In this document: positions 2,697-5,432 of the stretch, piece after piece | Position numbering within the stretch: position 1 is the first letter of the stretch | How the letters are laid out: each line of letters begins with the position of its first letter | Origin: a bacterium | GTDB lineage: Bacteria; SM23-31; JAUVVT01 | Assembly: GCA_030616165.1 (NCBI GenBank) | Contig: JAUWXV010000243.1 | Coordinates: forward strand, 1-5,519 | DNA: 5,519 nucleotides | Reading direction: 5' to 3' | The notes under the pieces: model-generated | Database searches by the model: none | The model's input: only the letters and a program-made list of their open reading frames with translations | What the model was told of the DNA's origin: nothing | Program-made: the position numbers and the translations under genes

Positions 2697-3569
2697 TTAA
2701 GTTTCGACTCCTCTTCTTCCCCAGTTTAGTTTTGTTCTTAATATATCATAGAAACTTTTTTTACTACAGTGCACGAGATTTACCAAATACTCTCCCTTTT
2801 TCACCTCTAATTTTTGTTCAGGCTTTAAATTGAATCCTATTTGACCGTCTGCAAATATTTTCACATGGCCTATCTCTGTCTTTAGTTTGATTGATATTAT
2901 ACTTTCTGAAGGGATAATTACAGGCCTTTCGGTAAGAGAGTGTGGGCAGATTGGATTGATAATAATCCCTTCCACATTGGGCGAAAGTATTGGTCCCCCA
3001 GCGGAGAGTGAATATGCTGTGGAACCCGTTGGTGTCGCAATTATCAATCCATCTGCAGTGTAAGTATTGAAGTATTTATCTCCGATAAATAGTTCCAAAA
3101 CAATAGTCCGAGAATATGAACCTTTGTTAACTACAATATCGTTCAATCCATAGATTTTTTTACCAGAGTCATTTGAAGGAATTGTGCCTGCCAATATCAT
3201 CCTCTTTTCAATATGAAACTTTTTTTCTGAAAGTATTTTAATGTTATCGATAAGTTCCTGGATGTCAATTTCTGCAAGAAATCCAAGCCTGCCTGTATTT
3301 ACTCCTAAAATTGGAACCATTTCTTTACCCACAACCTTTGCTGTTGAAAGTATGCCACCATCTCCACCCAGAGCAAGAATCATATCGCTCCTTTTAACCA
3401 GTTCATTTGACTCAACTCCTTTATCTGAAAATTCATTATTGCCGAGTTTTTCAATTAATGAATTTTCCACTAAAAATTTTATCCCTTCCCTATCCATCCA
3501 TTTGAAAAGTTTCTGAATGACTTCATTGTCACTTTCCCTAATTATTCTTCCTATTATTCCAAAATTCAA
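2697..3569 (-). CDS. nadK: NAD kinase
   Basis: A cytosolic enzyme that phosphorylates NAD with ATP or polyphosphate to make NADP. At 290 residues it has the usual length. Motifs in order: LALGGDGGIL with the GGDG at 68-71, where the following position is Gly rather than the common Thr or Asn; GVNTGRLGFLAEI (89-101); the N-E/D motif as N143-D144; TADGLIIATPTGSTAYSLSAGGP (in two parts, about 171-193), the hallmark of the family; and the late ICPHSLTERP (206-215). All core motifs are present, so it should be active. The start is TTG at 3569-3567, chosen because a TAA is the codon directly before it, a GGAG lies seven bases upstream, and MNFGIIG matches the usual N-terminal strand of the family. 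It is the fourth gene of the run, 91 bases after xseB and 38 bases before the sensor kinase. The spacer before it holds a GC-rich repeat that could affect its expression. Confidence 0.96.
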   Translation of the reverse strand: MNFGIIGRIIRESDNEVIQKLFKWMDREGIKFLVENSLIEKLGNNEFSDKGVESNELVKRSDMILALGGDGGILSTAKVVGKEMVPILGVNTGRLGFLAEIDIQELIDNIKILSEKKFHIEKRMILAGTIPSNDSGKKIYGLNDIVVNKGSYSRTIVLELFIGDKYFNTYTADGLIIATPTGSTAYSLSAGGPILSPNVEGIIINPICPHSLTERPVIIPSESIISIKLKTEIGHVKIFADGQIGFNLKPEQKLEVKKGEYLVNLVHCSKKSFYDILRTKLNWGRRGVET

Positions 3570-3660: not shown

Positions 3661-3879
3661 TTAAGAAATAAGTTCAAGTTGAAAATTTCCGTTTTCATCC
3701 TTTACAAGTTTTTTAAGTTGTGTCTCTGCCTCATTTAGCTTTTCTTTACAAAACTTTGTTAATTCAACACCCTTTTTAAAAATATTTATTGATTCTTCAA
3801 GTGGAATGTCACCATTTTCTAATTTTGAAACTATTTCTTCGAGTTTTTGTAGTGCTTCTTCAAATGATTTTTCTGACAT
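3661..3879 (-). CDS. xseB: exonuclease VII small subunit
   Basis: The small, non-catalytic subunit of exonuclease VII. Several copies bind the coiled coil of XseA and are needed for a soluble, active single-strand DNA exonuclease. The 72 residues match the usual 70-80. The family pattern is clear: FEEALQKLEEIVSKLENGD, then IPLEESINIFKKGVELTKFC, then an acidic and basic helix (KEKLNEAETQLKKL) and a short tail. The family fold is a two-helix hairpin, which fits. It starts at ATG 3879-3877 with AGGA six bases upstream (3886-3889). The gene begins only 11 bases after the xseA stop, so the two subunits are co-transcribed and probably made in a coupled way. Confidence 0.96.
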   Translation of the reverse strand: MSEKSFEEALQKLEEIVSKLENGDIPLEESINIFKKGVELTKFCKEKLNEAETQLKKLVKDENGNFQLELIS

Positions 3880-3890
3880 TTTTTATCCTA

Positions 3891-5105
3891 TTAAATTAAT
3901 TTTTGTATTTTCCCTTCTGCTTCCCCTTCATAAAACTTAATTTTTACCTCATCATCAACTTTGAGTCCCTTTGAATTTCTAACAATTTCTTCTTCAGGAA
4001 GTTTATAGCAGATACTGTACCCTCTCTTTAATACTGCAAATGGATCGAGAGATTTCAGTCTTTCTTCATAATTTGAGAGTTTCTCTTTTAATAATGAAAG
4101 TTTATGCTTGTATGTTATCTTCAGTCTGTGAGAGATTTCGTCTATAGTTTGAGAATATTGTTTAAAAAGGTCAAGTGGTTTTCTAAAGGCATAACTGGAT
4201 TCTATAGACTGGATTTTTTGCCTCTCTGAATCTATTTTGTCTTTGAGATTTTGATAGATTTTTTTAAATAATTGGTCGATTTGTGTTTCAATTTCAACTT
4301 TGTTCAATACGGCGATTTCGCCGGCAGCAGATGGCGTGGGAGCCCTCTTATCTGCAACAAAATCTGATATACTGTAATCAATTTCGTGTCCTATAGCAGA
4401 TAATACTGGAATCTTGGAAGCAAAAATTGTCCGTGCTGCAATCTCTTCATTGAATGCCCAGAGGTCTTCAAGTGAACCCCCGCCTCTGCATACGATAATC
4501 AGGTCAACTTCCCCAAATTCATTAAATTCTTTTATTGCATTGCTTATCTCCAAGGCAGCCCCATCTCCCTGAACCCTGACCGGATTGATGATAATTTGCA
4601 CCTGAGGGAAGCGCCTTCCAATTACGCTTACTATATCCTGTATAGCCGCTCCAGTGGGTGAAGTTACTACTCCAATTCTCCAGGGAAACTTCGGAAGTGG
4701 CTTTTTGTGTGTTTCATCGAAAAGTCCCTCATTTTGAAGTTTGTTTTTCAGTTTTTCAAATGCAAGTTGAAGTTCTCCAACCCCGATAGGATGTATAGTT
4801 TCGGCGTCTAATTGGTATTTTCCCTGTTTTTCATATACAGTAAGACTTCCGCCTGTTATTATCTCCATTCCATCTTCAAGAATAAAGTTCATAAGTATAT
4901 TTCGCCATTTCCACATTACGCAGGATATTTGTGCCAAATTGTCTTTCAGAGTAAAATAATAGTGACCTGATGAGTGCCTTTTTAGATTTGATATTTCACC
5001 CTTTATCCAGACAAATGGGAAACTCCCTTCAATGAGATGTTTTACCTCACTGGTGATCTCGCTCACTGTATAAACTTTTTCTTGCAGTTTTGGTAAAGAT
5101 TCCAT
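3891..5105 (-). CDS. xseA: exonuclease VII large subunit
   Basis: The catalytic subunit of exonuclease VII, which degrades single-stranded DNA from both ends into short oligonucleotides and acts in mismatch repair and damage processing. The protein has 404 residues, at the short side of normal. An N-terminal OB-fold (about 9-105, with VWIKGEISNLKRHSSGHYYF) binds single-stranded DNA. The catalytic domain follows (about 125-320) with WRIGVVTSPTGAAIQDI, CRGGGSLEDLWAFNEE and SAIGHEIDYSISDFVADKRA then PTPSAAGE, all strongly conserved in the family. The last part (about 270-360) is rich in Lys, Glu, Gln and Leu heptads, the coiled coil where XseB binds. It ends with a small strand-rich tail (LKRGYSICYK...). 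The ATG at 5105-5103 gives a normal N-terminus (YTVSE at residue 13). Its only purine-rich site, AAAGG, abuts the ATG, too close for an ordinary Shine-Dalgarno. Translation may therefore depend on the upstream micro-gene, which ends 39 bases before. Confidence 0.97.
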   Translation of the reverse strand: MESLPKLQEKVYTVSEITSEVKHLIEGSFPFVWIKGEISNLKRHSSGHYYFTLKDNLAQISCVMWKWRNILMNFILEDGMEIITGGSLTVYEKQGKYQLDAETIHPIGVGELQLAFEKLKNKLQNEGLFDETHKKPLPKFPWRIGVVTSPTGAAIQDIVSVIGRRFPQVQIIINPVRVQGDGAALEISNAIKEFNEFGEVDLIIVCRGGGSLEDLWAFNEEIAARTIFASKIPVLSAIGHEIDYSISDFVADKRAPTPSAAGEIAVLNKVEIETQIDQLFKKIYQNLKDKIDSERQKIQSIESSYAFRKPLDLFKQYSQTIDEISHRLKITYKHKLSLLKEKLSNYEERLKSLDPFAVLKRGYSICYKLPEEEIVRNSKGLKVDDEVKIKFYEGEAEGKIQKLI

Positions 5106-5144
5106 CCTTTATAACTTTTATTGAAAATATAGAATTAATTTCTA

Positions 5145-5240
5145 TTATCTAATTTTCTTTTTATGTCTGTCTTTTCTTAATCTTTTTTTCCTTTTATGAG
5201 TGGCGATTTTATGTCTTTTTTTCTTTTTACCGCTTGGCAG
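5145..5240 (-). CDS. small basic ribosomal-type protein, COX24/AURKAIP1 domain (bS22/mS38-like), CTG start
   Basis: A 31-residue protein reading (M)PSGKKKKRHKIATHKRK followed by KRLRKDRHKKKIR; more than half of it is Lys, Arg or His. This closely matches the tiny proteins annotated in Bacteroidetes and relatives as AURKAIP1/COX24 domain-containing (Pfam COX24_C/DUF1713). They are related to mitochondrial mS38 and mycobacterial bS22, which bind rRNA in the small ribosomal subunit. The start must be the CTG at 5240-5238: a TAA in frame ends two codons before it, no ATG, GTG or TTG lies in range, and a perfect AAAGGAGGT sits six bases upstream. CTG is a very rare start and should lower initiation or allow control, offset here by the strong ribosome site. 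It is the first gene of the run and is easily missed by gene callers because of its length and start. The family call is from memory of the pattern. Alternatives such as another short rRNA-binding peptide are less likely. Confidence 0.88.
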   Translation of the reverse strand: MPSGKKKKRHKIATHKRKKRLRKDRHKKKIR

Positions 5241-5245
5241 TTTTT

Positions 5246-5254
5246 ACCTCCTTT
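5246..5254 (-). promoter_or_regulatory. full-length Shine-Dalgarno AAAGGAGGT of the CTG-started gene
   Basis: Nine bases fully complementary to the usual 16S 3' end, with six bases between GGAGG and the CTG start. It is the strongest ribosome site in the window; the sites before nadK and xseB are partial and the kinase has none. Its T is the first base of the in-frame TAA that rules out any longer reading of the gene. Confidence 0.85.
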
Positions 5255-5400
5255 CCGAAAATTAAATTATTAACTTTTTAGGTTCATCTCCGATTTAATT
5301 GTAGAAAAACATAAAAAGTAGAATTATAATTATTTAATAATTTTTAATTTATTTACTTATTTTAAATATCTCTTAATTCGTTTTGATATTAATAAAAACT
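5255..5400 (-). other. AT-only 5' leader of the operon
   Basis: About 150 bases with no credible gene in any frame, composed almost wholly of A and T. Contents seen: a second TATAAT on the minus strand at 5323-5328 with no matching -35; a weak AATTAT-TTA-ATAATT inverted repeat at 5328-5342; and two tiny ATG frames of five codons on the minus strand. No riboswitch, T-box or stable GC hairpin is recognisable. If transcription starts near 5394, this is an unusually long leader for a 31-codon ribosomal-type gene. Confidence 0.4.
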
Positions 5401-5409
5401 ATTATATCA
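5401..5409 (-). promoter_or_regulatory. candidate extended -10 promoter of the operon
   Basis: On the minus strand the sequence is TGATATAAT, a perfect extended -10 element (TGn-TATAAT). No TTGACA-like -35 lies at 16-19 bases, which extended -10 promoters can do without. A start of transcription near 5393-5395 would precede all five genes of the run. In such AT-rich DNA TATAAT alone is common; the TG extension and the position are what favour it. If the organism uses the Bacteroidetes-type promoter consensus, this assignment would be wrong. Confidence 0.4.
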
Positions 5410-5432
5410 TTAACAAAATGATTATGAGTTGA

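Follow-up and report, generated by a model that had tools for sequence, protein, structure and literature searches.

Gene location and start codon

The window analysed here, a stretch of 5,519 nucleotides, contains a 31-codon ribosomal-type gene preceded by a strong Shine-Dalgarno sequence and apparently starting at CTG, which raises the question of whether this start is genuine and, if so, why a ribosomal protein gene would keep so weak a start codon. The gene is located on the minus strand (5145..5240), with the start CTG at 5240-5238 and the stop codon TAA at 5147-5145, and its translation from CTG is LPSGKKKKRHKIATHKRKKRLRKDRHKKKIR. Read along the minus strand (...TTCGGAAAGGAGGTAAAAACTGCCAAGCGG...), the Shine-Dalgarno sequence AAAGGAGGT (5254-5246) is followed by an in-frame TAA (5246-5244), by AAA, by the CTG and 30 more codons, and by the terminal TAA at 5145. 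The codons ahead of the CTG are AGG AGG TAA AAA, among which ATG, GTG and TTG are all absent, so no such start is possible and CTG is the sole possible start in the assembled sequence; an in-frame start farther upstream, or read-in, is blocked by the TAA two codons ahead. The distance from AGGAGG to CTG is 6 nt and the predicted pairing energy with the anti-Shine-Dalgarno sequence is -13.0 kcal/mol, which places it in the top 4% of the 227 starts modelled for this genome, whose median is -5.9. A start codon outside ATG, GTG and TTG is combined here with a strong ribosome binding site.

The preliminary description of this DNA, made from its letters alone, had given the same coordinates for a ribosomal-type gene with CTG as its only start, a TAA two codons upstream and a strong, properly spaced Shine-Dalgarno sequence, and all of this was confirmed. 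Its statement that initiation at this CTG is real is supported by the Shine-Dalgarno sequence and by protein conservation, which begins in the alignments at residue 2 (Pro2) in 16 of the 16 genomes of a first survey. Annotation pipelines restricted to ATG, GTG and TTG starts would overlook this copy of the gene.

Identity of the protein

Protein sequence homology identifies the product as bS22, an AURKAIP1/mS38-type (COX24-like) protein of the 30S ribosomal subunit. Indeed, phmmer searches against solved structures matched (i) bS22 of Flavobacterium johnsoniae (7jil, E 6.5e-9), (ii) an AURKAIP1/COX24-domain ribosome chain (9i5v, E 1.2e-8) and (iii) bS22 of Borrelia (8fmw, E 5.8e-5). The short, highly basic sequence typical of the family (of the MPxGKKxKRxKxxTHKRKKRxRxxRHKKK type) is present in the window protein according to phmmer and the alignments, and orthologues from four other genera of the same phylum share 90-96% identity with it. 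A chance open reading frame is ruled out by these orthologues and by the matches to solved bS22. According to PMC10618245, bS22 binds helices h2, h27, h44 and h45 of the 16S rRNA, a pocket of the 30S subunit which it occupies in Borrelia, F. johnsoniae and M. smegmatis, and touches H68 of the 23S rRNA.

The Pfam model COX24_C gives the window protein 12.7 bits, against a cut-off of 23. Two bS22-type sequences drawn from solved ribosomes or patterned on them (the second differing slightly from the 8fmw chain in one stretch) also score under this cut-off, so COX24_C does not define the bacterial family; an NCBIfam search with the window protein returned no match. A profile built without the initial methionine detected bS22 in 136 of 386 sampled genomes. 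The protein is therefore common, yet poorly caught by standard models.

Start codons of bS22 orthologues

Six genomes of the phylum to which the window belongs were sampled, and five of them encode bS22. The start codons are CTG (window), TTG in three genomes and GTG in one, all behind a good Shine-Dalgarno sequence and none of them ATG. The baseline for the window genome was obtained from about 390 kb with a simple, home-made and approximate start model, which gave 204 ATG, 10 GTG, 10 TTG and 1 CTG among the 227 starts, the lone CTG being devoid of a Shine-Dalgarno sequence; a flat prior gave similar results. ATG thus accounts for about 90% of starts genome-wide, in contrast to the non-ATG bS22 start in all five members of the phylum that have the gene.

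In the broad survey, 121 bS22 start regions were tallied (two genomes being counted twice, one with TTG and one with ATG, and about 17 lowest-scoring matches being left out), of which 85 start with ATG, 18 with TTG, 17 with GTG and a single one with CTG. CTG is ruled out as a family-wide start of bS22. In the comparison with orthologous loci, which had been proposed to see whether CTG is conserved or ATG is usual, ATG is the commonest start overall, but the relatives within the phylum use TTG or GTG and the CTG itself is not conserved, the orthologues starting with TTG, GTG or ATG. In a third phylum (that of genome G056), four of five genomes have GTG and one ATG. In Bacteroidota, bS22 starts with ATG without a Shine-Dalgarno sequence; the search of this collection was tilted towards ATG, one of its patterns containing the initial methionine, and the loci found with internal patterns agree. 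Because the methionine-containing pattern favours ATG, the loci of this collection were left out of the start statistics. A crude count of codons following strong Shine-Dalgarno sequences was too noisy.

The singularity of the CTG could also mean that the true codon is TTG and that the change from T to C reflects a base error in the assembly or a variant carried by a minority strain; the gene would then be an ordinary bS22 gene with a UUG start. The siblings do have TTG, the 5.5-kb contig belongs to an assembly of 343 contigs, and a switch from UUG to CUG is very rare, with 1 case among 2468 ancestral UUG starts (PMC5622118). However, the remainder of the reading frame is intact and conserved, the Shine-Dalgarno sequence equals those of the siblings in strength, and a single error would have had to strike exactly the start base; this explanation is held to be quite improbable. 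The result on weak starts presented below is independent of whether the CTG of the window is correct.

Maintenance of TTG starts in two phyla

Two densely sampled phyla were analysed. In the phylum of genome G325, 40 bS22 genes start with TTG, 10 with ATG and one with GTG (n=51); in the phylum of genome G012, 28 start with TTG and two with ATG (n=30). The TTG baseline among modelled genes, taken from one genome of each phylum, is 8/145 (phylum of G325) and 10/124 (phylum of G012), i.e. 6-8%. The control gene rpmH, another short ribosomal gene, starts with ATG in 20 of the 21 readable genes of these two phyla and with TTG in none; in the wider survey, rpmH was read in 27 genomes, almost all with a non-ATG bS22 start, and begins with ATG in 22 of them. 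Fisher tests of the TTG starts of bS22 gave P values of 1e-23 and 4e-20 against the baselines and 3e-13 against rpmH, which ignore relatedness and are descriptive only. These genome baselines, together with rpmH, rule out a high general use of TTG as the cause. The bS22 start is thus a weak one held across clades with an ATG baseline, as in rpsT.

The third base of the Pro2 codon, a four-fold degenerate site, is spread over the four bases (12/15/13/11) in the phylum of G325 while TTG is kept next to it; this randomised site beside a kept start codon makes inheritance without selection a poor explanation in that phylum. In the phylum of G012, the third base of Pro2 is less even (22/6/2). As judged from these comparisons, a weak bS22 start is maintained in several lineages, and the near-universal avoidance of ATG in the phylum of the window and in two others suggests that it is kept weak by selection. 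The trait is lineage-specific, since ATG is the commonest start overall and Bacteroidota use ATG without a Shine-Dalgarno sequence.

What holds the start codon could also be unrelated to how strongly it initiates, for instance an overlapping signal or an RNA element, and the strong dominance of TTG, and not GTG, in two phyla speaks for this. Against this, three different non-ATG codons occur across the window and its siblings, the flanking bases vary, including the third base of Pro2 in one phylum, and no conserved RNA structure was found in the bS22 leader, making this explanation very improbable. An Rfam search of the leader returned no match either, and on these two results an RNA operator in the leader was ruled out.

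Genomic neighbourhood

On the minus strand, bS22 is followed, 39 nt downstream, by xseA, encoding the large subunit of exonuclease VII (3891..5105), then by an xseB-like gene for the small subunit (3661..3879) and by an NAD kinase-like gene (2697..3569, with a TTG start in the mechanical list of reading frames), the last two being assigned from their translations and sharing their order with relatives. The order in relatives is HU-bS22-xseA-xseB(-nadK), bS22 lying shortly after the HU frame, and HU-bS22-xseA also occurs in other phyla. The window retains bS22-xseA-xseB-nadK. Ahead of bS22 the contig has 279 nt, which contain no HU gene; a dispersed intergenic repeat is found there instead (minus strand, 5275..5410, possibly to about 5468), ending some 20-25 nt upstream of the Shine-Dalgarno sequence. 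The best match to the HU of the siblings in the same genome (contig C137, 7417-7686, 70% identity) is not followed by bS22. The HU-bS22 cluster seems to have been broken up in this genome, close to where the repeat lies.

Partial copies of this AT-rich repeat lie on contigs C24, C47, C182, C218, C32, C301 and others, the best being 84-89% identical. Its ends, GGTTCATCTCCGATTTAATTG and ATTAGTTGCAGTAAAAAG among them, suggest that it is MITE-like and bounded by a terminal inverted repeat. Elsewhere in the window, a short minus-strand frame (506-643; NIRELENVIERAVLI...) immediately follows a gene for a response regulator/histidine kinase (703-2658); it resembles the C-terminal remnant of an NtrC-type regulator and is possibly a decayed gene.

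Co-transcription of bS22 and xseA is likely on the basis of their arrangement. The preliminary description had gone further and suggested that xseA is translationally coupled to bS22; this is unsupported, because the two genes are 39 nt apart, and their conserved order is compatible with co-transcription only. In the gap (5106-5144), AAAGG directly abuts the ATG of xseA and a well-spaced Shine-Dalgarno sequence is absent.

Possible initiation-limited synthesis of bS22

The median energy of the duplex between the Shine-Dalgarno sequence of bS22 and the 16S tail is -12.4 in the siblings of the window's phylum, -16.6 in the phylum of G325 and -8.25 (moderate) in that of G012. In the survey, the energies are -10.2 for ATG, -11.6 for TTG and -10.3 for GTG starts, a modest difference between non-ATG and ATG (P 0.005). 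A strong Shine-Dalgarno sequence thus typically accompanies a weak start in the window's phylum and in that of G325, and does not do so universally.

AUG is normally favoured by selection, most strongly in conserved and highly expressed genes (PMC5622118). The retention of UUG by a ribosomal gene over phylum-level divergence, with CUG once, is contrary to this rule and points to translational control. In the reading that we prefer, and regard as evenly poised between right and wrong, bS22 synthesis is limited at initiation by a selected weak start joined to a strong Shine-Dalgarno sequence, the window being the extreme, CTG case. Selection would hold the start weak (mostly UUG in relatives, sometimes GUG, and CUG here, one step from UUG), the strong Shine-Dalgarno sequence would place 30S subunits on the start so that the weak codon stays usable, and acceptance of the start codon would limit the output of bS22. 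Permissive 30S subunits, either at low IF3 or without bS22, which sits against h44/h45, would accept the weak start more readily, and bS22 would rise; from this we infer a feedback on bS22 through its weak start. In E. coli, the output relative to AUG is 0.86% for CUG and 29.8% for UUG (PMC11497404), and the former value counts against initiation-limited synthesis, since so low an output would be hard on an abundant protein. Further points against it are the predominance of ATG among bS22 starts overall, the ATG starts of Bacteroidota, the moderate Shine-Dalgarno sequences in the phylum of G012, the modest energy difference between ATG and non-ATG genes and the lack of a conserved structure in the leader.

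In the main alternative, a weak start would serve a static tuning, setting a fixed lower output of bS22 (for instance in proportion to that of HU, whose gene it follows in the cluster of relatives), with the strong Shine-Dalgarno sequence as ordinary compensation and no feedback. The conserved HU-bS22-xseA order with bS22 close behind HU, the leader without conserved structure and the genome-wide tendency of weak starts to have stronger Shine-Dalgarno sequences (PMC5622118) all fit such tuning. Yet in the window genome, bS22 seems parted from HU and its start is even weaker; a weaker Shine-Dalgarno sequence would moreover be a simpler way to lower output, whereas infC, sigR and ccpN all pair a strong one with a weak codon. 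Static tuning is accordingly considered possible but rather doubtful.

Initiation-limited synthesis with feedback recalls infC, to which the preliminary description had likened the locus. In three relatives, no standard start is found ahead of the IF3 domain of infC, the most likely starts being ATA, ATT and ATA behind a Shine-Dalgarno sequence, and in the window genome ATG, GTG and TTG are all absent before the IF3 domain. From these near-cognate infC starts, the known infC autocontrol, and with it control of near-cognate starts by IF3, is probably present in this phylum. CUG, unlike UUG and GUG, belongs to the class repressed by IF3 (PMC5472188), and would likewise be IF3-sensitive in the window organism. 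The proposal of a weak start kept for regulation therefore stands in part: weak starts, mostly TTG, are kept over phylum-scale divergence and infC is near-cognate, but the CTG is not conserved, and TTG and GTG are not repressed by IF3 as AUU and CUG are. A bolder version, in which ribosomes lacking bS22, a protein normally packed against h44/h45 near the decoding site, accept UUG or CUG behind a strong Shine-Dalgarno sequence and those bearing it do so poorly, so that in several phyla bS22 mRNA would be a preferred template of specialised ribosomes without bS22 (autoregulation), is judged unlikely.

Comparison with known systems

A literature search, mostly of open papers, returned no report of conserved weak bS22 starts. 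Several known systems share part of the arrangement, and infC, sigR, rpsU of Bacteroidota and rpsT are precedents for the proposed logic. One of them is infC (AUU, AUA or AUC start, autoregulated by IF3), which like bS22 of the window has a near-cognate start behind a strong Shine-Dalgarno sequence in a translation gene; bS22, however, is a ribosomal protein and not a fidelity factor, and most of its non-ATG orthologues have UUG or GUG, which are not repressed by IF3. As the non-standard start is not conserved among orthologues, bS22 is not classified as infC-type, and only its working may be similar. In gamma-proteobacteria, rpsT (bS20, UUG start) also encodes a 30S protein contacting h44 and has a lineage-conserved weak start proposed for autoregulation (PMC10931766); it differs in that bS20 is another protein, whose autoregulation is called unproven in PMC10931766, and in that bS22 has one CUG case and a very strong Shine-Dalgarno sequence.

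The rpsU gene, which in Bacteroidota is translated by ribosomes devoid of its product bS21, resembles the bS22 gene in encoding a small 30S protein behind a very strong Shine-Dalgarno sequence (PMC9976891). There, the Shine-Dalgarno sequence is the sensor in genomes which otherwise ignore such sequences, whereas most modelled genes of the surveyed bS22 genomes carry Shine-Dalgarno-like motifs and the unusual element of bS22 is its start codon. Borrelia bS22 (bb0822) is of the same family and, according to PMC10618245, was unannotated, has a non-AUG start and was verified by cryo-EM; its start is GUG and not CUG. Finally, sigR of Streptomyces (GTC; PMC5472188) and cvfC1 (AUU) and ccpN (AUA) of S. 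aureus (PMC13009471) combine a conserved near-cognate start with an extensive Shine-Dalgarno sequence, the weak start lowering output, and differ from bS22 in not being ribosomal protein genes.
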